A stretch of DNA of 23,772 bases from a virus, in IMG/VR virus record IMGVR_UViG_3300042321_001819, positions 1 to 23,772 of that record. One strand, written 5' to 3'. Numbering within the stretch: the first letter of the stretch is position 1; each line of letters starts with the position of its first letter. This document shows positions 6,754 through 22,543 of this stretch, piece by piece. The translations under genes and the position numbers were made by a program. The notes under the pieces are model-generated. The model saw only the letters and a program-made list of their open reading frames with translations, made no database searches and had not been told where the DNA came from.

Positions 6754-8730
6754 GTGGCTAATCGTCGTATTTCTGAACTTCCGCTCCTAGCTGGGGCGGA
6801 CGTAGATGAGCAGGATCTGCTGACGATGGTCCACGTATTCGAAGTGGACCCTACCCTTAAAAACAAAAAGATCACAATCTCTGGTTTTGGAGATTACCTC
6901 TCAACTAAATACGTAACAACCACTGGTGGCACAGTAACCGGCAACGTCTTAGTACAAGGGAACTTAACTGTAACTGGCGTTACTGTTGTCAATGCATTCA
7001 CTAGTAGTGGCCTTGGAACGTTTAGCGGCGTCCTAGTTCAAAACAATTTGACCACAAGTGGCACGATCAGCGGTCAAACAATTACAGGTGAGGCACTTCA
7101 ATCTGTAACAATTAACTCAGCAACCGGTACATTCACTACGGTTAGCGGGGCGACCTCAAACTTTGTAAGTGGGAATTTCAGTACCCGACTCTCGGGTGCA
7201 ACCATTACCGGCAACACGCTTCAAGCAACGTCCGGACAATTTAATTACCTGAGTGGCGCCACAATTACAGGTGGTTTGGTCCAGGGTGTAAGTGGTATTT
7301 TTGGCACGCTTGCTACGCCTGTTCTTGATGTAAGTGGCAACTTGTCCGTTGCGAGTGGACTGACCGTTACAGGTCTCGCTCAATTTGCATCAGGCGTACA
7401 AGTCACTGGTACGTTATCAGGAACAACCGTCACTGGGACAACGGCACGTTTTACTAGTGTCACTGGTGTAACTGGTGTATTTACAACTACGTTGTCCGGT
7501 GCATCCATTACGGGGACAACTGTTAACGCAACGCTAATTACAGGTGTATCCGGAACATTTACATCAAGGGTATCAGGAGCAACCGTAACCGGTAACATAG
7601 GTTCTTTTGGCTCAGTCAGTGGCGTTTCCGGTGTATTCTCTCAGGTTCTTTCTGGTGCTGTAATCACAGGAGACGCCGGTCAATTCACAGTCATCACCGG
7701 TGTTTCTGGTGTTTATACCAATTTATCTGGTGCCACAGTCACTGGTGATACTGTTTTAGCTGCAACTGTATCGGGTGTTTCCGGTGTATTTACTAGCCGT
7801 ATTTCAGGTACTACCGTTACCGGCACCACCGCAGCTTTTACAACCATTACAGGTGTCTCTGGTGTATTCACTACTCAGGTATCAGGAGCAACCATTACTG
7901 GTACTAGTGGTCAGTTCACAAATGTAACTGCAGGCACTGGGGTATTTACTCTTGTTTCTGGCACTACTGTCACGGGTAATACTGGTACGTTCACCAACCT
8001 CACTGGTATTGCAGGGGTCTTTACCACCAGTGTTTCAGGTGCAACTGTAATAGGTACAACTGTTACCGGTGCGACAGGCATCTTTACTTATGTAACTGGT
8101 ACCACGATTACCGGCATCACAATCAATGCTGCTACTGGTGTATTCACCACTCTTCAAGCAACAAACCTTAGTTTTACTAACACCACAATCTCGGGTGATT
8201 TAAACGTTGTTGGCTCTGGTTTTATTGGTTCAGGTTTATCTGTAACGGGTACGATCAGCGGGCAAACAGTAACTGGTGCAACGGCAGCCTTTACTTCAGT
8301 CACTGGAGTGTCCGGTGTTTTTACCACGCGTTTATCGGGTGCAACCATTACGGGTAACACTGGGTTATTTGCGAGTGTAACAGGTGTTTCTGGTGTATAC
8401 ACTTATCTTTCGGGTGCAACCGTTACAGGTGATACTGCCAGATTTAGTAGTGCAACTGGGATTAGTGGCACTTTTACAACACATTTGTCGGGTGCAACCA
8501 TTACCGGTAACACGGGACAGTTCAGCAACGTCACAGGTGTTTCCGGCACGTTTACCAGCACCCTTTCAGGTGCAAACATTTCTGGAACCAACGCAACTAT
8601 CACCAACATCACAGGCGGTACACTTGCAATTACAACTCCGTCTGGCACTACTCCCGCTATTGTCTGTTCAGGTGTTGTATCTGGCAGTGCCAGTGGTTTT
8701 ATAATCAAAGGCCCCTTGATTATTCTTTGA
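6754..8730 (+). CDS. Repeat-rich tail fibre / receptor-binding type protein
   Basis: This encodes 658 residues starting at GTG 6754 (ANRRISELPLLAGADV), a start typical of phage fibre and adhesin proteins, with ISELP then VDEQDLLTMVH. From about residue 60 to the end it is built of many imperfect repeats of ~22-26 residues around SGATITGNTG(Q/L)F and VTGVSGVF(T/S). They are rich in Gly, Thr, Ser and Val, as in beta-helical or beta-prism fibre shafts. I see no catalytic domain and no S74 chaperone; the end is short (FIIKGPLIIL). It probably trimerises to form a fibre shaft, possibly with a partner tip protein such as the next gene. The DNA repeats are similar enough to allow recombination and length change. 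Confidence 0.8.
   Translation: MANRRISELPLLAGADVDEQDLLTMVHVFEVDPTLKNKKITISGFGDYLSTKYVTTTGGTVTGNVLVQGNLTVTGVTVVNAFTSSGLGTFSGVLVQNNLTTSGTISGQTITGEALQSVTINSATGTFTTVSGATSNFVSGNFSTRLSGATITGNTLQATSGQFNYLSGATITGGLVQGVSGIFGTLATPVLDVSGNLSVASGLTVTGLAQFASGVQVTGTLSGTTVTGTTARFTSVTGVTGVFTTTLSGASITGTTVNATLITGVSGTFTSRVSGATVTGNIGSFGSVSGVSGVFSQVLSGAVITGDAGQFTVITGVSGVYTNLSGATVTGDTVLAATVSGVSGVFTSRISGTTVTGTTAAFTTITGVSGVFTTQVSGATITGTSGQFTNVTAGTGVFTLVSGTTVTGNTGTFTNLTGIAGVFTTSVSGATVIGTTVTGATGIFTYVTGTTITGITINAATGVFTTLQATNLSFTNTTISGDLNVVGSGFIGSGLSVTGTISGQTVTGATAAFTSVTGVSGVFTTRLSGATITGNTGLFASVTGVSGVYTYLSGATVTGDTARFSSATGISGTFTTHLSGATITGNTGQFSNVTGVSGTFTSTLSGANISGTNATITNITGGTLAITTPSGTTPAIVCSGVVSGSASGFIIKGPLIIL
6915..8610 (+). 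repeat. Tandem imperfect DNA repeats within the fibre gene
   Basis: A recurring unit of roughly 66-78 bases encodes the SGATITG / VTGVSGVF periods. Near-identical words recur, for example GGTGCAACCATTAC at about 7196, 8339 and 8493, and variants of ACAGGTGTTTCCGGTGTATT. Units vary in length, and silent differences show they are diverged copies. Confidence 0.75.
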
Positions 8731-14504: not shown

Positions 14505-15158
14505 TTACTCTTCGGTTTCTTTTAACAGCTCTGGCTTGGTAATTGAAAATTTGTATTGTTTTTTGAGAAACATGCCAAGGGTGCCAGCTTCTTGTTGTTG
14601 TGCATAAAACACAAGTTTGTTGGCTTTGAACTCGGTCTCAAAAGGAGCGATCACTTGTGGTGCAGTGGTGCGATTAAAACTTGACACCATATGCAATGGG
14701 TTAAAGCATTGTTTGTTTCCACATGTTCGAGTGACGCTAAGCGTGCCCACATCGCCCCAGGCGCATTGATACACAGCCTTGTGCAGTGTTACGTTTTCGG
14801 CAGCTTGCTTGCTGTACGCAGCCCGATAAGAGGGCATGCACACGCGTTTCAGTTCCTTGTGCGTTGATCTTTTGGGCAGCCAGCAGTCACTGGTATTGCC
14901 TATCTCAATTGAGTCCCAGATTGTGGCGTACTTGTGTTTGTAGCGGGCGTCAAGGTAGTTGAGGTCAAAGCCACAGATGTTTGAAACAATCTTGTGGACG
15001 CACTCATAGCACCAATGTTGGTCTTGTTTGCGAATGGTGTGACCATGTGCGCAGGGATAGCCGACGTAGTAGCCAGCTTGCTCCAGGTCATCCTCCGATA
15101 GCTTGGTTAAGTCTCCTAAGTATTGAAAGGAGACTACCGCTTCAATTACCTTTGCCAT
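14505..15158 (-). CDS. HNH-type protein with N-terminal zinc knuckle, key His replaced
   Basis: This encodes 217 residues from ATG 15158 (MAKVIEAVVSFQYLG). The frame is open further upstream, but that part overlaps the preceding gene. Residues ~36-56 give a zinc-binding pattern (CAHGH...CYEC). Residues ~140-175 resemble the HNH_3 family: LHKAVYQCAWGD, then CGNKQCFNPLHMV, which corresponds to the family's xHxCxNxxCxNPxHL. The position usually held by the catalytic His before the first Cys appears to read Arg (TRTCGN), so activity is doubtful. It overlaps the upstream HNH-type gene by 17 bases. Homing-endonuclease descent is likely. Confidence 0.65.
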   Translation of the reverse strand: MAKVIEAVVSFQYLGDLTKLSEDDLEQAGYYVGYPCAHGHTIRKQDQHWCYECVHKIVSNICGFDLNYLDARYKHKYATIWDSIEIGNTSDCWLPKRSTHKELKRVCMPSYRAAYSKQAAENVTLHKAVYQCAWGDVGTLSVTRTCGNKQCFNPLHMVSSFNRTTAPQVIAPFETEFKANKLVFYAQQQEAGTLGMFLKKQYKFSITKPELLKETEE

Positions 15159-15531
15159 TTTGAGGATTGGTGTTGGGGTTGAAATCTGAGCGTGTGGTGC
15201 GTGGCTTGGCGGCTTTTGGCTTCTTCCTGGCAAAAAGGAAAAGAAGTTTCCGGTTGTCCTTCTCTGGGTTGTCATCACCATGAATGACATCCATGTTGCC
15301 GGGGTCCTTGCCCGTGCGTAGGTAGTACACGATGCGGTGAGCGTGGAACTGGTCGCCATTCATGCGAATGACGTAGTACTGGCCCGTGCCGTTCCACTTG
15401 CCAGCCATATCACCAGCCTTATGGCGGCCCGTTGTCTCCCGCCATTCCAGGGCACTGGGGTACTTGAGGGACAACTTGAGCTTGGCTCTGAGGTACCAGA
15501 GGGGTAGGAGAGGTTTGTACGCCCTTGGCAT
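15142..15531 (-). CDS. Small HNH-type endonuclease (paralogue of 15981-16292)
   Basis: This encodes 129 residues from ATG 15531 (MPRAYKPLLPLWYL), chosen because the paralogue downstream begins at the same point (MARSYKEMLPLWYV); the frame continues to 15582. The core HAHRIVYYLRTGKDPG then VIHGDDNPEKDNRKLL matches HNH_3-type nucleases (HRLV...TG.DP...V.H.D.N..DNR), with the central His present. A ~25-residue basic, Pro-rich tail (KPKAAKPRTTRSDFNP) follows, which the paralogue lacks. Its 3' end overlaps the next gene by 17 bases. By my count the paired copies share 66 of 103 aligned positions. Confidence 0.7.
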   Translation of the reverse strand: MPRAYKPLLPLWYLRAKLKLSLKYPSALEWRETTGRHKAGDMAGKWNGTGQYYVIRMNGDQFHAHRIVYYLRTGKDPGNMDVIHGDDNPEKDNRKLLFLFARKKPKAAKPRTTRSDFNPNTNPQNGKGN

Positions 15532-15602
15532 GGACTCCATAATCGGATAACCAATCATACATGTCCTGAATGGGTCCGTCAAGGAGCAGGGAGATAGGGT
15601 GA

Positions 15603-15821
15603 ATTTTTCCGACTATACCCCTATTTTATCTTTTATATAACCAGCATTACATTTTGGTCCATTTTGTAATTAGCCTTTGTCCAAATGCTTTGTATAATCG
15701 GAATCTCAGCCTTGTCTCAAAGCTGTCTCACTGAGCATGTATAGTCGGAAAGCATTACATTTTCACCCAAAATGTAATGTTGGCCATATAAAGGTTGAAG
15801 TGGGGGCATAGTCGGAAAAAT
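15603..15821. repeat. 14-bp perfect inverted repeats flanking ~190 bp
   Basis: ATTTTTCCGACTAT at 15603-15616 and ATAGTCGGAAAAAT at 15808-15821 are exact reverse complements. The homology may continue weakly into CCC-rich flanks on both sides. Two further forward copies of the core lie between them. Confidence 0.65.
15753..15779. repeat. 11-bp perfect hairpin
   Basis: CATTACATTTT (15753-15763) pairs with AAAATGTAATG (15769-15779) around a CACCC loop. It directly follows one TATAGTCGGAAA copy. It is AT-rich with no T-run, so it is not an intrinsic terminator. Confidence 0.65.
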
Positions 15822-15848
15822 AACCCACCCTTTGCCCTTTCAACCGTC

Positions 15849-15873
15849 TTTATGCGTACTCACTCCGCATAAA
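15849..15873. repeat. 8-bp perfect hairpin
   Basis: TTTATGCG (15849-15856) and CGCATAAA (15866-15873) are exact reverse complements with a nine-base loop. It lies in the non-coding island downstream of the motif cluster. Confidence 0.5.
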
Positions 15874-15934
15874 AACACCATCCCCTGGTACAAACCAACT
15901 ACTTTACTTCCGTTTCTCGGTCTTATTGCCCAAT

Positions 15935-15960
15935 AAAAAGCCCCCGCTGGTGCAGGGGCT
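15935..15960 (-). terminator. Intrinsic terminator after the 15981-16292 gene
   Basis: On the minus strand AGCCCC (from 15960) and GGGGCT (to 15939) form a GC-rich stem with inner GC pairs, followed by TTTTT ATT. It begins 20 bases past the stop at 15981, as expected for the end of that minus-strand gene. Confidence 0.8.
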
Positions 15961-15980
15961 CTTGTCTCACTTGTATCAAA

Positions 15981-16292
15981 TCACTTGCGCTGGTACAAAG
16001 CCAGCTCCTTTCTGTTGTCGCGTTCGGGGTTGCTGTTGGCGTAGATGACATCTTTGCTGCCGGGATCCTTGCCTGTTCTCAGGAAGTACACCAAGCGATG
16101 CGCGTGGTACTGATCGCCGTTCATTCGGACTAGGTAGTAATTTCCTGGTTTGATCAGCTTGCCAGCCATCTCTCCTTTTGTATGCCAGCCAGTTGTTTCA
16201 AGCCATTCCAAACCACTGGGGTAGCGGTCAGAAAGTTTGATTTTTGTTTGAACGTACCAGAGGGGTAGCATCTCCTTGTAAGAACGTGCCAT
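15981..16292 (-). CDS. Small HNH-type protein, central His replaced by Tyr
   Basis: This encodes 103 residues from ATG 16292 (MARSYKEMLPLWYV). It is a paralogue of the gene at 15142-15531, aligning end to end without gaps and lacking the paralogue's basic tail. The framework HAHRLVYFLRTGKDPG and NPERDNRKEL is intact, but the expected VIH of the HNH core reads VIY, followed by ANSN instead of GDDN. This change should abolish nuclease activity if the family assignment is right, so it may be a decaying or repurposed copy. A good intrinsic terminator follows within 25 bases. Confidence 0.65.
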   Translation of the reverse strand: MARSYKEMLPLWYVQTKIKLSDRYPSGLEWLETTGWHTKGEMAGKLIKPGNYYLVRMNGDQYHAHRLVYFLRTGKDPGSKDVIYANSNPERDNRKELALYQRK

Positions 16293-16387
16293 GGGCAGGG
16301 CAGTGGTGCCAAGGGATGTTAGCACTTGAATAGTCGACTAAACCCAGCCGCTAACCTTGGCCCCATCAAAGTGGTTTTTTGCCAATG

Positions 16388-16426: not shown

Positions 16427-17710
16427 TCAGGCTACCGCACCTATCAGACGTTTCTTGCGTTTTTCTTTTTTCTTCTCCTTCTTGCTTACCGGTTCTTCCG
16501 CCTGAGTCGAGTGCGCATCCCCATAGGAGCCCTCTAGGACCTCCTGGAACAGCCCTGCAAACTGAGGTGCGATGTTGTCCCAGTCGTAGCAGGGGGAGGT
16601 GGCACGCTCGTAGCAGAGGCGTGCAGTCTCATCAAGCTTCTCACGGTTCTCATAGAGATCTGTCAAGATTTCAGCGAGGTGATCAGCGGATGGGCAGGGC
16701 ATTTCCCGTGCGTAGTTCGTATCCACATCTACGTGGTCACAACGGATAAGGCGACCAGCACCCTCAAAGATCTCCTTAGTACTGGTATGGTCAGGCACCA
16801 CCTGAGCAACACGGCAGCCCGCATGCTCATGGTTGACCAGTCCGTGGCCCTCACCCTTGCAAGTGTTGACGCCTACGTCAGCTGCGTTATAGATCGCATT
16901 CAGGAAGTCCACCTCCACATTTGGCGGTCCCTCGGATTGCGCAGTAAGGATGATGCGTCCATTGGGATCCAACCCTTCCCGACCCATTGCCCTGGCAAAC
17001 AGTGGCATCAAGTCCCAACCTTGATCCTTGAGTCCCATGTGTAGATACAGTTGCGTATCCGGCTTGTCCTTCGCAAACTTGGCAAAAGCTTCAACCGTAA
17101 TGTCGATGCGTTTGCGGAACTGGTTGCGGTTACCGTTGAACACCACAAAGATGTCATCCGACAGGCCAAGCCGCTTACGAGCCTCACTCTTATCCATGGG
17201 ATAGAACTGACCCTTGGTGATACCGTGAGGAATCACAGCGATAGGCTTCTGGTAACCAGCAGCCACCACTTCTTTTGCACCAAATTCCGTATAGCAGATG
17301 GACGCATCCCACTCATTCATGGTGTCAAGGATGCACCCAGTCCAGCCGTAGCTGTCCATGGGGTAGTAACCAATAAATTTGAAGGCGCCAGTCTGGTGAA
17401 TGTCCTGGATCTGACGATACAACTCATTCAGAATCCACAGATCATTCATGATGAAGATGAGATCTGGCTTCTCTTTCTCTACAATCTCTCGAATGCGTTG
17501 CTCACCAAAGGGTGCGGTCTGATGTCGAGTAGACGAGGGATAAATCAGGTACTTATCACAGAGTGAATGTGGGTCACCCCACCAGTTATTGCCGAGCACT
17601 ACAACTTCATAGTCATCGCAAAGACGCTCAAGCACATTTTCCGTGACACGAGCAAACCCGGTTTTGGCGATGATGTCACCGGACCAGAGCAGTTTAGGAC
17701 GTTTGGTCAT
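16427..17710 (-). CDS. GT-B fold glycosyltransferase (GT4-like)
   Basis: This encodes 427 residues. The N-terminal domain opens with PKLLWSGDIIAKTGFARV and has the Gly-rich contact loop of GT-B enzymes. The linker AVIPHGITKGQFYP is typical of GT4-type transferases. The C-terminal domain contains VVFNGNRNQFRKRID (start of the nucleotide-sugar-binding half) and GVNTCKGEGHGLVNHEHAGCRVAQ, which corresponds to the family's EGFGLxxxEAxAxG donor-binding motif. A Lys-rich tail (SKKEKKKEKRKKR) closes the protein. It transfers a sugar from a nucleotide donor; the acceptor could be host surface polysaccharide, a virion protein or modified DNA, and nothing here decides which. It has its own terminator downstream and a palindrome over its probable start region. 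Confidence 0.88.
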   Translation of the reverse strand: MTKRPKLLWSGDIIAKTGFARVTENVLERLCDDYEVVVLGNNWWGDPHSLCDKYLIYPSSTRHQTAPFGEQRIREIVEKEKPDLIFIMNDLWILNELYRQIQDIHQTGAFKFIGYYPMDSYGWTGCILDTMNEWDASICYTEFGAKEVVAAGYQKPIAVIPHGITKGQFYPMDKSEARKRLGLSDDIFVVFNGNRNQFRKRIDITVEAFAKFAKDKPDTQLYLHMGLKDQGWDLMPLFARAMGREGLDPNGRIILTAQSEGPPNVEVDFLNAIYNAADVGVNTCKGEGHGLVNHEHAGCRVAQVVPDHTSTKEIFEGAGRLIRCDHVDVDTNYAREMPCPSADHLAEILTDLYENREKLDETARLCYERATSPCYDWDNIAPQFAGLFQEVLEGSYGDAHSTQAEEPVSKKEKKKEKRKKRLIGAVA

Positions 17711-17730: not shown

Positions 17731-17891
17731 TAACTATACCTAATTAAGTAAAAAATTTAGCGATAGCCCGTGAAGGACGCCCACAGGTTCAGGCCTTTGT
17801 GCAGTAAACTTATGGAAGCGTCGCCTTTGTAGTGCCAAAACCTTTTCTTTCAGTTGTTTTTATTTCGGAAATCCAATGCCGGGAAGGTCGT

Positions 17892-18374
17892 ATGTCCGAG
17901 CATCCGTTATATGACACATGGCGCGGGATGCTTGAGCGTTGCAAAAACAAGAACTCGCCTGCATACGCTAGGTACGGCGGCAAGGGAATTAGAGTTCACG
18001 AAGAATGGGCAAGCAAAGAACGTCACCCACTGTTCAAAAGATGGAGTAAGGGTTTTTGTTCTTTTTTAGAATACATTGAATTGCATTTGGGATTTAAGCC
18101 AGAGGGGTTTTCGCTAGACCGTGTGAACTCTATGCAAGGTTATGCACCAGGTAATTTGAGATGGGCAAACGCGTCTTTGCAAAAGAAGAATCAAAAAGTT
18201 GCAAACAAAACAGGATACAAATACGTTTACCCCGTTGCGGGGTCAAGCAAGTGGCAAGGTGAGTACAAGCATGGTAAAAAACGTTTTTACGTGGGTGTGT
18301 TTGACACCAAAGAAGAGGCTCATTTAGCTGTTTTAGTCCACCGACTTGAGCACATGTGGCCTACGCATCTCTAA
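17892..18374 (+). CDS. HNH homing endonuclease with C-terminal AP2 DNA-binding domain
   Basis: This encodes 160 residues from ATG 17892, chosen because GGGAAGG lies five bases upstream; a GTG at 17832 is in frame but has no such site. Residues ~4-105 show the free-standing phage HNH-like pattern: HPLYDTWRGMLERC, YARYGGKGIRVHEEW, SLDRVNSMQGYAPGNLRWA. Residues ~108-158 form an AP2-type domain: GYKYVYPVAGSSKWQGEY, then KKRFYVGVFDTKEEAHLA. This architecture is a known mobile homing endonuclease type. It lies on the strand opposite its neighbours and overlaps the 3' end of speD by 14 bases. Confidence 0.85.
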   Translation: MSEHPLYDTWRGMLERCKNKNSPAYARYGGKGIRVHEEWASKERHPLFKRWSKGFCSFLEYIELHLGFKPEGFSLDRVNSMQGYAPGNLRWANASLQKKNQKVANKTGYKYVYPVAGSSKWQGEYKHGKKRFYVGVFDTKEEAHLAVLVHRLEHMWPTHL

Positions 18375-18714
18375 AAACTTTTCGTTGAATTTCTTTTTGT
18401 TCACATGTTTGAGCCCTGAGTTTTGTTTTTAAAAACTCGGCAGCGCGGTGAGTTTGTGTTTTATCTCCACAAGTATAAAGATCAACTGCTGCATAACCTT
18501 CGCAAGGCCAAGTGTGGATACTTGCGTGGGACTCTGCCAATAATGCAAGCAGTGTCACGCCTTGCGGCTCAAATTTTTCACCAATAATCCGTAGGATATT
18601 GGCTTTAGCCATAACAAGAGAAGCCTCAAGCAATCGCTGAAGCTCCTCGTAGTCATTCAAAACCTCTGGGTCACACCCATAGAGATCTAAAATTAAGTGG
18701 CGACCGTTGCTCAC
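18361..18714 (-). CDS. speD: S-adenosylmethionine decarboxylase (pyruvoyl enzyme)
   Basis: This encodes 117 residues, the size of the bacterial class 1b enzyme. It decarboxylates SAM to supply aminopropyl groups for spermidine. HLILDLYGCD (6-15) is the family start. LLAESHASIHTWP (58-70) carries the self-cleavage site Glu61-Ser62, whose Ser becomes the pyruvoyl group, and His67. AAVDLYTCGD (75-84) carries the catalytic Cys82. The WPE that usually follows reads WPCEG, a minor change. Its start overlaps the primase-helicase stop by four bases, so the two are co-translated. Cyanophages often carry speD, presumably to raise polyamines. The C-terminal ~15 residues lie within the overlap with the convergent HNH-AP2 gene and end KVFRDA. 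Confidence 0.92.
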   Translation of the reverse strand: MSNGRHLILDLYGCDPEVLNDYEELQRLLEASLVMAKANILRIIGEKFEPQGVTLLALLAESHASIHTWPCEGYAAVDLYTCGDKTQTHRAAEFLKTKLRAQTCEQKEIQRKVFRDA

Positions 18715-21338
18715 ATTTCTTCTGCAGCAACTTCCATTGTCTCATTAGTAGGTACATCTAGGGTAGATCCGTAGAAATCCCGATACTTTTCACGGTCGGA
18801 AGACACTTCCACAATTGACGGGTAAGCGTCATACTTTTGATTGGACTCCCGTACGGCGGCATTAAATACCCGCATACCTTTGGTGTTCTTGGTGGCATAG
18901 ACATTTAGCTTGAGCTGGTGCTTGCAGATGTCAAGGAACAGGGGTTCAAACCGACCACGTGACATGATGCCAACGTTGCAGCTACGGCAGAACTCTGCAT
19001 AACTTGCATACATCCACTGGTTCCAGTTCATGTATGCACCTGAGCTTCCACCCGGCAGCGGTTTACAAAAACCAACGGGAGCAGATGCACCTGGGTCAAA
19101 TACGACCTTGTGATCCAGCCAATCTAACAGTGGGTTGGAACGCAGGCTTTGCTGCTTCTCATACCGCTGGAAGAAATCAACTTTCTTGCCGGTCTCCATT
19201 AGGTATGTCCGCATTTCTTCTGCAGACATATCCAATAGCCAGTTCACCAAACCGGGCAGCATAGGTGCAAACACACCTTGCGGCATACCCTTGGCATCAA
19301 ACTTGATCAGTTCTTTTTGCTCTGCTTGTCCACCTTCAAATGGACGATCAAACGGAACGGTAAGACGGCGACGAGCAAGACCAGAAGTGTAGTCAGTGGA
19401 CTGAATAGCTTCGTTGGCCGTAATCATGACGACCCCATGGTACTGGAAGGGATCTTGACTTTCGGTCTGATACTTGCGTTCAGAACGAATCCAGTCATTA
19501 CCAGTGATGGCCTTCAGTTTTGATACCGACCCACCCCAACGGTCTGCATCCTGGAACAGCAGAAGCTTTTTACCCATGTAGCTAGCTGCCTCAAACCTGT
19601 TCTTCTCCAGATTCTCAAAGTCTGTTGAGTAGGTGTTTTGCTTACCGACCAGTGCTACAGCTAGGTTTGCGTAGGTGGATTTACCTGATTTACCTGGACC
19701 CACAATCTCAATAAACTTCTGGATCTCGTAGCAACCCAGGAGTGTGGCACGCAACCATGCACGTAGAACCTGAGCACGTTGCCAGCTACCGTGTTGAGTG
19801 TGCTTCAGCCAGATAACAATTTCTTCACAAGTGGCAGATGCGTCATAGTTGTACGGCATCTGTTGGATCATGTGAAGCTCCCTATCAAAAGGAAGTAGTT
19901 CACGTGTATCAATATTAAGGACACCATTGGTGAACAGCAGGTACTCACCACCTTCATACCAATTGTCAAATGCCAACTCAGCCTGCAGCTGAGCAAAGAC
20001 ATCATTCATGAGGTTCGTGCTAAACCCCTTGGGGAGGAAGTCACCCAACTCTTTGAGCTTGCCCCTTATATCACCAAGTACATCGATCTTGGTCAGCGGT
20101 GACCAAAGGCCTTTCTTTTTGTCCTTCTCATATAAGAAGAACTGACCATGGGGTTGACTGTACAGCAGATTGCCCCTATACAGTTGGAGCAATACATCCG
20201 TGACCTTGTCCGATGAAGGGTTCCGTCCTTTGGAGTCTTCTCCTTCTTTGTTTACCTGTGTTGCCGGCACACGCTTCGTCTTCTTTTCAAAAACAGGCGC
20301 CTGCTCTAATGTGGTTCCCTGACTCATCTCTAGATCCTGTTCTAATTCTTCCAGCAATTTCGACACATGTTCTAATGTCGCATCATCGACATTCATCGCC
20401 CTGTGATCCTGGGGCGGCTGCCAACCGTTCTCCTTCGCAATGTGAACAAGAGAACCAATCCCACGACCACCACCACGACTGAAGGACAGCCAGCGGCGGT
20501 GACATTCACCTTCCTTGTACTTCTCCGATTGCTTGGACCAGTTATCCCATTCATCTAACAGGGATTCGTCCAGCGAATGAAGCGACTGACCGACTGTGAT
20601 CCAAATGTCATAGTCGTCAGTTGCTTCCGGAGGCAGTGCCCACATTGCCTCCCTTGCCAACTTCATGTCCCGATCAAGATCGATCTGAACATTGACTGCA
20701 AAACTTGGACCAACAAGCCGAGTAGTTTCCTTGGCAGGAACCCCTTGCTTTACGTTTTTGTTGATGATGGCATTCAGCAGCCATTCCGGAAACTCAGGCA
20801 GTTCCTGGACCCACTCAAAACCACAGTCCTCACCCGTAAAGTAACCATCGGTTTCAGGGTGCAGACCCATTAGCACACCCTGGTGCCGCTTCCAAAGAAT
20901 CTCAAGTTTTTCTTTGTTCTCTTCTCCGTGCCAAGTGTATTTGTTTCTGACGAAATGCTTGTGATTTTCCCGTTTCAAGCGGTAAAGCTTGCGTTCACGC
21001 CCGATTTTGCCACTGAAAACGGTCAGCGTTTGGGGCAATGCTTCATTAAGAGGCAAGCCAGAGATTTGTTCAATAAGTGGATAGATGCTCGGTCCATCAA
21101 CATCAACCCAGACCAGGCCATAAGGATAGTTGTAAACAGGGCCGCCAAGCAAACCGACAGCTTTGCATTTGCCGGTAAGGATTTCCTCCTCAATTTCCTG
21201 TGCACTAAATGGCTTGTTCTGCCAACCTGATACATATGGATCTTTGTTCGCGCCAAGCGGCGTGAGCGGCCAATCCTTGGGGATGTAGTCAAGACGTACC
21301 TCGCCGGGCTTCAGTGTCAATTGTTGTTTGCTTGTCAT
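18711..21338 (-). CDS. Primase-polymerase with SF3 helicase (PrimPol/PriCT-2/D5-like replicase)
   Basis: This encodes 875 residues. Residues ~15-190 form an archaeo-eukaryotic-type PrimPol domain with the metal-binding acidic pair Asp79/Asp81 (VWVDVDG), an FSGK-type second motif (108-111) and a later GLHPETDGYF segment. Residues ~225-305 match PriCT-2 (DYDIWITVGQSLHSL, then RRWLSFSRGGG). A charged linker precedes a ~480-residue helicase part with Walker A GPGKSGKST (547-555), Walker B KLLLFQDAD (591-599), the SF3 motif VVMITAN (636-642) and an Arg-rich GLARRRLTVPF. It would lay primers and unwind DNA at phage forks. It heads speD, and two small genes precede it on the same strand. Confidence 0.9.
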   Translation of the reverse strand: MTSKQQLTLKPGEVRLDYIPKDWPLTPLGANKDPYVSGWQNKPFSAQEIEEEILTGKCKAVGLLGGPVYNYPYGLVWVDVDGPSIYPLIEQISGLPLNEALPQTLTVFSGKIGRERKLYRLKRENHKHFVRNKYTWHGEENKEKLEILWKRHQGVLMGLHPETDGYFTGEDCGFEWVQELPEFPEWLLNAIINKNVKQGVPAKETTRLVGPSFAVNVQIDLDRDMKLAREAMWALPPEATDDYDIWITVGQSLHSLDESLLDEWDNWSKQSEKYKEGECHRRWLSFSRGGGRGIGSLVHIAKENGWQPPQDHRAMNVDDATLEHVSKLLEELEQDLEMSQGTTLEQAPVFEKKTKRVPATQVNKEGEDSKGRNPSSDKVTDVLLQLYRGNLLYSQPHGQFFLYEKDKKKGLWSPLTKIDVLGDIRGKLKELGDFLPKGFSTNLMNDVFAQLQAELAFDNWYEGGEYLLFTNGVLNIDTRELLPFDRELHMIQQMPYNYDASATCEEIVIWLKHTQHGSWQRAQVLRAWLRATLLGCYEIQKFIEIVGPGKSGKSTYANLAVALVGKQNTYSTDFENLEKNRFEAASYMGKKLLLFQDADRWGGSVSKLKAITGNDWIRSERKYQTESQDPFQYHGVVMITANEAIQSTDYTSGLARRRLTVPFDRPFEGGQAEQKELIKFDAKGMPQGVFAPMLPGLVNWLLDMSAEEMRTYLMETGKKVDFFQRYEKQQSLRSNPLLDWLDHKVVFDPGASAPVGFCKPLPGGSSGAYMNWNQWMYASYAEFCRSCNVGIMSRGRFEPLFLDICKHQLKLNVYATKNTKGMRVFNAAVRESNQKYDAYPSIVEVSSDREKYRDFYGSTLDVPTNETMEVAAEEM

Positions 21339-21826: not shown

Positions 21827-22543
21827 GTGTATCATTACACTTATATGAGTATTGATTCCACCGATGGCCGCATGTATATTGGCAGTCGAACATCGAAAAA
21901 CAAACCCGAAGAAGACGTTAATTATTTTGGAAGTTTTTGCGACAAAACTTTTAAACCAGATACGAAGAAAATTTTAAAAATATTTAAAACTCGTGCAGAA
22001 GCTTTTAAGCATGAAGCATATTTGCATTTTGTATTAGATGTTGCTGTAAATCCAATCTTTGCAAATAGGTCAAGAGTGACCACTACAGGTTTTACATGGC
22101 TTGGACAAAAACATTCTCCTGAAACAATTAAAAAAATTCGACAAACAACAAAAGAAAATATGACACCAGAACGAAAAGAAAAACTTAAAGAAGCAAGCAA
22201 AAATAAAAAACTAAGCAAAGAACATATTGAAAAACTTCGTCAATCAAACTTAGGCTTAAAACGAAGTTTTGAAACATGTGAAAAAATTAGATCAAAAGCA
22301 CTTGGCAGACAAGTATCCAGTGCAGCACGCAAAAAAATCAGCGTAAGCAACAAAGGCAAGTGGATCAATAGAAAAGATCAAAGCAAACCAATAACATTAA
22401 AAAATAAAAATACCGGACAAGTTTTATGTTTTGTTTCACAAAAAGAAGCTGTTCGTTCTCTTGGTTTACATCAAGCAGCATTGAACAGAGTGGCAACAGG
22501 CAAGCAGCACTCCACTAATGGATGGATTCTTTTTGTAAATTAA
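21827..22543 (+). CDS. GIY-YIG homing endonuclease with NUMOD3 repeats
   Basis: This encodes 238 residues from GTG 21827; the family begins right at this point (MYHYTYMS), and a later ATG at 21845 would cut into the domain. Residues 1-80 form the GIY-YIG nuclease: YTYMS for the GIY half, MYIGSR with catalytic Arg21, and a conserved Glu63 (KHEAYLH). Three to four NUMOD3-type DNA-binding repeats follow: HSPETIKKIRQ, LSKEHIEKLRQSNLG, SFETCEKIRSKALG, SSAARKKISVSNKGK. The end (SQKEAVRSLGLHQAALNRVATG) is a NUMOD1/IENR1-like helix-turn-helix. It is more AT-rich and Lys-rich than its neighbours, a sign of recent arrival. It overlaps the exonuclease stop by four bases on the opposite strand. Confidence 0.88.
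   Translation: MYHYTYMSIDSTDGRMYIGSRTSKNKPEEDVNYFGSFCDKTFKPDTKKILKIFKTRAEAFKHEAYLHFVLDVAVNPIFANRSRVTTTGFTWLGQKHSPETIKKIRQTTKENMTPERKEKLKEASKNKKLSKEHIEKLRQSNLGLKRSFETCEKIRSKALGRQVSSAARKKISVSNKGKWINRKDQSKPITLKNKNTGQVLCFVSQKEAVRSLGLHQAALNRVATGKQHSTNGWILFVN

Follow-up and report, generated by a model that had tools for sequence, protein, structure and literature searches.

The plasmid pRN1 requires, 3′ of its orf904 gene, a 100-nt stem-loop whose structure is conserved while its sequence is not, and the part of the report used here (PMC4234260) describes a stem-loop that is needed and still works when displaced, with specific binding to it not found. In the same source, a stem-loop 3′ of the replication protein of BIP-1 was proposed as the origin (Berkner 2014, PMC4234260). 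The Rep origins of SaPI and SCCmec are described, in the portion of the literature consulted (PMC7581432), as iteron sets lying directly downstream of the gene for a self-loading helicase, the C-terminal domain of which recognizes these repeats. The origins of phage P4 are iteron arrays, and its crr is a direct repeat located just beyond the terminator after alpha. The P4 primase domain is of the Toprim type (Berkner 2014, PMC4234260). How PrimPol/SF3 initiators locate their start site is the question that the DNA island analysed here addresses. In the open-licence papers searched, a set outside which the S-EIV1 genome paper falls, no origin of S-EIV1-like cyanophages was described.

The window, a 23,772-base IMG/VR virus record, comes from an S-EIV1-like cyanophage, of which it is a fragment. 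When its PrimPol was used as a query, a single phage record, Synechococcus phage S-EIV1 (79,178 bp), had a place that covered 80% or more of the protein, with 58.5% identity across 98% of the PrimPol length. No near relatives of the window were found when the annotated phage collection was searched at the DNA level, and isolate relatives were reached via protein comparison. Read leftward from the right of the island, the gene order is exonuclease, PrimPol-helicase, SpeD, glycosyltransferase (GT), island, HNH1, HNH2b and geneX, the last being the name given here to the conserved gene beyond HNH2b. The PrimPol gene (18711-21338, minus strand), encoding the proposed initiator with PrimPol, PriCT_2, D5_N, SF3 helicase and C-terminal winged helix (residues 735-860), lies about 2.9 kb from the island, with SpeD and GT (16427-17710, minus strand) between. 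An intrinsic terminator of the preceding right-hand gene (15931-15960, minus strand) insulates the island against leftward transcription from upstream, and strong equivalents separated the GT stop codon from the left arm of the island in 38 of 40 non-redundant relatives. Two endonuclease-like genes inside the replication module (17832-18374, with a weak AP2-type match, and 21827-22543, with a NUMOD3/I-HmuI-type match) are on the plus strand, opposite to the module genes.

The sequence-only reading had placed a non-coding island at 15583-15980, with HNH-type genes on both sides. No listed open reading frame of at least 50 aa was found inside the island, and since the left HNH gene has its conserved start codon, an ATG, at 15531, the non-coding gap is probably 15532-15980. 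Downstream of the island, HNH1 (15142-15582, minus strand, with the start codon just given) may be transcribed from a promoter within the adjacent arm, and it is followed by the HNH-type endonuclease gene HNH2b (14505-15359, minus strand), which was matched in all 13 whole genomes. The HNH assignment on the right needs correcting: the neighbour there (15981-16325, minus strand), an additional HNH1 paralogue lying between the island and the GT terminator, gave only a weak HNH match (PHROG 99) and no Pfam match, and this gene is missing at that place in three relatives (L009, L010, and L034). HNH1 and HNH2b are separate overlapping frames in the window, and in L004, L006, L007, L027, L028, and G016 they are fused into one open reading frame of about 345 to 364 aa.

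Within the island, the segments 15603-15616 and 15808-15821 were exact 14-bp reverse complements, as noticed earlier, and they proved to be the outer tips of two imperfect inverted arms of 68 nt each, 78% complementary and 83 nt apart, which together with the spacer span 211 bp. Arm A (15603-15670, minus strand), the putative half-origin next to HNH1, consists of an outer word, a variable spacer, an AT-rich block and an inner dyad; arm B (15754-15821, plus strand) is its inverted partner, and both have homologous arms in relatives. With up to one mismatch allowed, the word TATARTCGGAA occurred four times in the 23,772 bases, and the extra copies seen before were indeed clustered, all four lying within the 211 bp: TATAGTCGGAA at 15607-15617 (minus strand), TATAATCGGAA at 15693-15703 (plus strand) in the spacer between the arms, TATAGTCGGAA again at 15740-15750 (plus strand) in the spacer beside arm B, and CATAGTCGGAA, with one mismatch, at 15807-15817 (plus strand). 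With up to two mismatches, 11 copies were found against 8.15 expected in the whole window, which is the chance level, and the signal is therefore the clustering of the motif and not its total count.

The AT-rich block of arm A (TTATATAACCA, 15633-15643) is a candidate melting segment, and the corresponding block of arm B (15781-15791) reads TTATATGGCCA on the minus strand. The inner block of arm A, CATTACATTTTGG...TGTAAT, occupies 15645-15670, and that of arm B (15753-15779) is an exact 11-bp dyad, CATTACATTTT/AAAATGTAATG. Both hairpins of the earlier reading were recovered, the 11-bp one being exact (15753-15763/15769-15779) and the 8-bp one lying at 15849-15856/15866-15873. Identity between arms A and B was 18/19 in the outer word, 6/11 in the spacer, 9/11 in the AT-rich block and 13/13 in the inner CATTACATTTTGG. 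As a single strand, the island folds at −47.1 kcal/mol versus −21.95 kcal/mol for shuffles (z −7.3). In the comparison of relatives, AT content averaged 63% in the arms versus 53% in the upstream gene.

Relatives were gathered with three kinds of scan: GT gave 106 relatives, of which 80 loci were kept, geneX gave 76 loci, and a single DNA pattern gave 3. After GT in the GT loci comes an HNH gene, and the gap between the two carries the repeat. We scored 86 island regions, not all of them independent and including the window and S-EIV1, against 344 control windows of equal length taken from these loci (maximum score 29, mean 18.1). At 68 of the 86 loci, the inverted repeat between the GT terminator and the HNH operon was stronger than any control window. 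One locus (G021) equaled the control maximum of 29, and the remaining 17 scored 16 to 28, with no repeat above background; either the symmetry there has decayed to isolated half-sites or the rule fails. Among 12 whole IMG/VR genomes, the sole repeat scoring at least 42 sat at the island site in nine, and no repeat reached 42 in G012, G021, or G023; inspection by eye of G012 and G023 revealed paired half-sites kept without a continuous repeat. S-EIV1 has a single repeat scoring at least 38 (score 41), at 7842-7955, the same address. Neither of the outcomes that the sequence-only reading had named as speaking against a functional site, namely, no conservation in relatives and a motif scattered through genes, was found.

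Arm lengths among the relatives ranged from about 50 to 100 nt, with the blocks arranged around a spacer of 15 to 270 nt. Arm sequences differed between lineages (e.g., TTCCGACTATACC, AAAATTCAGGATAAG, GATGAATACNG, and ACGACACCTCCAT), and the two arms within one phage agreed with each other. In 39 of 40 arm pairs analysed, identity was clustered in blocks (combined p 9e-10; 11 pairs individually below 0.05), and because of this clustering two inverted half-sites may by themselves account for the stem-loop appearance, with no functional hairpin behind it. Across 13 groups of closer relatives, complementarity survived a double change 69 times and was lost 18 times, with about one-third preserved expected by chance; in the same groups, where cells are not independent, pairs were broken by a single change in 204 cases and restored in 101. 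The preserved double changes count in favour of an origin, and the pair-breaking, single-sided changes, which are common, count against it. In L007, one arm is present after position 7281 in two direct copies and one inverted copy, suggesting a recent arm duplication. A second conserved box, GTCTCA/TGAGAC, often as a dyad, was observed near the island, no more than 500 nt away, in 13 of 14 sequences, G006 being the exception, with 39 occurrences in total versus about 5 expected from the genome-wide density.

Pfam detected Prim-Pol (PF09250, E 1.8e-8), PriCT_2, D5_N, and DUF5906 domains in the window's PrimPol. Residues 12-197 form an archaeal-plasmid-type PrimPol domain with pRN1 ORF904 as the best structural match (Z 10.3, rmsd 3.6, 167 residues), and an SF3 helicase is present in the same protein (D5_N plus DUF5906), with a profile match to the SaPI5 primase-helicase 7ola (E 2.3e-14), which residues 366-493 also matched structurally. 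The AF2 model of the whole protein was of low confidence (pLDDT 59); residues 733-839 in it matched the P4 origin-binding domain. Since this global model was poor, the C-terminal domain (735-875) was modelled alone. The resulting model (pLDDT 84.8) contained the winged helix and matched the P4 origin-binding domain 1ka8 with Z 9.4 and rmsd 2.5 over 87 residues, the next match having Z 7.5. Thus, as modelled, the C-terminal part of PrimPol folds like the origin-binding domain of phage P4.

We then compared island similarity with the identities of PrimPol, GT, SpeD, HNH2b, geneX, and the exonuclease. Fifty-eight of the 86 loci had a repeat score of at least 29, a PrimPol of at least 650 aa, and both HNH2b and geneX, so loci with no detectable repeat were left out, and removal of near-duplicates gave 40 non-redundant phages. 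The rank correlation of island similarity with PrimPol identity was 0.40 (jackknife range 0.388-0.454), versus 0.14 for geneX, 0.14 for the exonuclease, 0.10 for HNH2b, 0.08 for SpeD, and −0.03 for GT, which served as the control gene. The PrimPol correlation was 0.41 given GT (p 0.002, 499 permutations) and 0.357 given all five other genes (p 0.001, 999 permutations), whereas each other gene given PrimPol fell between −0.09 and 0.05 (p ≥0.30, 499 permutations). Because GT and SpeD lie between PrimPol and the island and would otherwise correlate as well, this covariation goes beyond mere linkage. Within PrimPol, the signal peaked at residues 361-480, 511-570, and 751-840 and was weakest at 1-60 and 211-270; residues 1-300 added nothing once 361-480 were given (0.01).

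In 31 pairs with GT at least 88% identical, the correlation with the island was 0.91 for PrimPol residues 751-870, 0.89 for 361-480, and 0.63 for 1-300, versus 0.83 for HNH2b, 0.44 for geneX, 0.23 for SpeD, 0.14 for the exonuclease, and −0.01 for GT. The HNH2b value fell from 0.83 to 0.19 given the winged helix, which itself stayed at 0.70 given HNH2b. The mosaic phage L004 is 98% identical to the window in GT, 97 to 99% in PrimPol residues 1-150, 84% up to residue 300, and 44 to 71% beyond, and its island is unrelated to that of the window; L005, L009, and L010, which share PrimPol with the window almost throughout, also share the island type. As judged from these comparisons of sequences, the island changes in step with the DNA-binding end of PrimPol, across an unchanged intervening gene.

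Taken together, we consider it highly probable that the island is the cis-acting site recognized by the PrimPol/SF3-helicase of the phage itself, and most likely the replication origin. A conserved, genome-unique inverted repeat at a fixed address, the agreement of both arms within each phage, the covariation and the origin-binding-type fold were observed; direct binding, double-ring loading, melting, priming and the start of replication at the island are steps that we infer. Two of the options in the sequence-only reading, an origin for the PrimPol-helicase and a protein-binding array, are supported and turn out to be one and the same thing. In the proposed mechanism, a short spacer carrying two further copies of the word would be flanked by two inverted half-origins, each combining the word itself (here TATAGTCGGAA) with an AT-rich block and an inner dyad. 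The half-origin sites would be read by the C-terminal winged helix, probably together with the pre-helicase (D5_N) region, and one helicase ring would be loaded per half, in opposite directions; the AT-rich part would then melt, and the PrimPol domain would prime both forks. TATARTCGGAA would serve as the initiator word, and the covariation supports a predicted binding of its copies by the helicase C-terminal domain. An initiator-origin pair, comprising a PrimPol-SF3 helicase with a predicted P4-type origin-binding domain and a two-armed site, is the simplest account of these data.

The cumulative GC skew that the sequence-only reading had recommended plotting gave a divided answer. Averaged over 13 genomes, skew was about 0 to +0.07 in the 1.5 kb left of the island and about −0.1 for 7 kb to the right, and the step was abrupt at the island though the genes immediately on either side share a strand. 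This step is a cumulative maximum, and the right-hand genes run towards the island, which a simple bidirectional origin would not predict; since the sign of the step and the gene direction are ambiguous, the skew was not counted as support. The distance of about 2.9 kb to PrimPol, with two genes in between, also speaks against an origin.

The island could instead be a promoter or operator, with the HNH-side arm as a promoter, the mirrored arm as a second operator or divergent promoter, and a regulator, possibly PrimPol, as the binder. TATAGT is found about 40 nt (L030) and about 25 nt (L023) before the HNH start, in many phages only a few bases separate the end of the right arm from the next gene, and in S-EIV1 the arm motif is repeated beside TATAAT just before the gene; the arm beside the HNH gene may also contain the HNH promoter. 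However, a −10-like site lies outside the repeat in S-EIV1 and G013, and a promoter scan of the region gave four promoter-like sites versus 2.5 expected, the chance level. The dispersed family of phage promoters suggested earlier did not materialize, since arm 14-mers, summed over 10 genomes, occurred elsewhere 883 times versus 887 for reversed controls; as the arm words are not in excess elsewhere, a promoter family or general operator is argued against, and this candidate, for which the motif would recur upstream of many genes, was rejected. The downstream gene HNH2b also lacks covariation with the island once PrimPol is accounted for, and PrimPol would still be needed as the regulator. We regard this explanation as unlikely. 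That the neighbouring HNH endonucleases recognize the island or home to it, another suggestion of the sequence-only reading, is in our view very unlikely, even though the 86 located loci have an HNH-type gene after the island, L004, L006, and L007 differ in the island and the HNH genes alike, and HNH2b tracks the island among close relatives. That tracking is a point against the origin reading, reduced by conditioning on the winged helix as given above. Over the 40 phages, the HNH2b correlation dropped to −0.05 given PrimPol (p 0.71) in a test that covered HNH2b, and a homing site is not supported as the main explanation; no HNH1-type gene was matched in S-EIV1, G015, L012, L013, L016, and L017, six phages in which the repeat is retained.

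That the inverted repeats differ in sequence between phages might also be expected of a packaging or recombination site, or of a miniature inverted-repeat mobile element, but such readings are extremely improbable given a site that keeps one address in relatives and is single-copy per genome. Four assemblies self-close (123- to 127-bp end repeats) with their ends away from the island, the terminase is far from the island in S-EIV1, and the island covaries with PrimPol. The miniature mobile element that had been proposed is not supported, there being one copy at one address in the nine whole IMG/VR genomes showing the repeat. The least credible reading, to which we give almost no weight, is a structured RNA; the strong folding of the island strand relative to shuffles and the tendency of double changes to preserve complementarity would suit it, but the strong terminators between the upstream gene and the repeat, the block-wise clustering of arm identity and the covariation with a DNA-binding replication protein do not, and Rfam at gathering thresholds gave no match.

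With the replication origin as the preferred reading, the locus can be set against the known systems. According to the parts of the reports on the pRN family that were used (Berkner 2014, PMC4234260; Joshua 2013, PMC3869888), these plasmids share with it a PrimPol, an SF3 helicase and a C-terminal winged-helix protein, as well as an inverted repeat downstream of the replication gene, past the terminator, whose structure is kept while the sequence changes. The differences are that two genes (SpeD and GT) intervene here, that the arms are built of blocks around a spacer, and that sequence turnover is tied to the initiator. The island and its PrimPol have the testable features of the pRN1/BIP-1 kind, including a large inverted repeat that lies downstream of the replication gene and keeps its structure but not its sequence, and a requirement in cis is predicted. 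The iteron-type feature, several short word copies, is also present, as four TATARTCGGAA lie in 211 bp with none elsewhere in the window. Like SaPI/SCCmec, the phage would pair a self-loading helicase with sites recognized by its C-terminal domain, although those origins are iteron sets. The modelled likeness to the P4 origin-binding domain extends to position, the island lying beyond the GT terminator as crr lies beyond that of alpha; P4 differs in its iterons and direct repeat, and a scan of P4 for inverted repeats found nothing. By analogy, the island likely works as the pRN1/BIP-1 and SaPI/P4 origins do.

The candidate origin of BIP-1/BPP-1 (Berkner 2014) likewise goes with a protein that has Prim-Pol, PriCT_2, and SF3 parts. 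In our scan of BPP-1, the strongest inverted repeat of the genome lay just 3′ of the PrimPol gene, at 26607-26710 (score 56, the next being 32). Its arms consist of a tandem pair of short words plus a T-rich block, the words differ from those of the island, and no annotated replication-module gene lies between PrimPol and the repeat. Among 65 BPP-1-family PrimPol loci with enough flank (six others were too short), 63 had their top repeat on the 3′ side of the gene, no more than 700 nt away. Each phage (L237-L307) has its own word, commonly as a tandem pair per arm, such as GCGACGTTT, GGAACGTTT, GCGTCGTTT, and GTGGCGTT, among others; the repeat just 3′ of the primase in L240 is an example of an inverted pair of tandem words. 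Judged by their sequences, these repeats look like a word-coded origin family. Covariation in this family was spread over PrimPol (windows 0.18-0.45), and the domain focus was not reproduced.

Among relatives of the primase of Streptomyces phage Abt2graduatex2, the top repeat lay within 700 nt 5′ of the gene at nine of 10 loci with enough flank (one other was too short). Abt2graduatex2 itself carries, directly 5′ of the primase (L232:14411-14706), an inverted repeat with 119-nt arms and a score of 138 (next 33), and L308-L318 show the same arrangement with different sequence. Across 12 distant SF3 phage records outside the clade, scanned in whole or in part, the picture for generality was mixed. 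One outstanding repeat (score at least 50) was present in five, namely, BPP-1, ctSAF950 (L230:18280-18517), Abt2graduatex2, Morganella phage Henu15 (L235:20774-21045, with TGTTGCAG words), and Vibrio phage 1.056.O (L236:3200-3487, between divergent genes); three of these repeats were within about 1.1 kb of the primase/helicase gene, and those of Henu15 and 1.056.O were about 4.7 kb and about 10 kb away. No repeat scoring at least 50 was found in P4, LR797314, Vibrio 1.103.O, Sasha, PTXU04, Sycamore, or LincolnB, the last of which has three weaker repeats within about 330 nt of the primase. In S-CBS4, a record outside these 12 of which the first 20 kb were scanned, no repeat scored 28 or more.

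We tentatively advance a broader proposal, judging it slightly more prone to fail than to hold: PrimPol-SF3 phages would share a kind of origin in which two inverted half-origins are written in a private word read only by their own initiator. Word and initiator C terminus would move between phages together, as a matched set, even where the gene between them stays intact. A change of word would set replication compatibility or incompatibility, and the "stem-loops" of pRN1 and BIP-1 would not be hairpins but sites at which two helicase rings land head to head. Natural exchange between these phages acts as an experiment, in which the site and the DNA-binding parts of the initiator change together and the gene between them stays constant. 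The comparison thereby offers natural pairs of initiator and putative origin by the dozen, together with a route to origins in uncultured phages and with candidate origins in three groups, namely, the S-EIV1-like cyanophages, the BPP-1-like phages and a group of Streptomyces phages.
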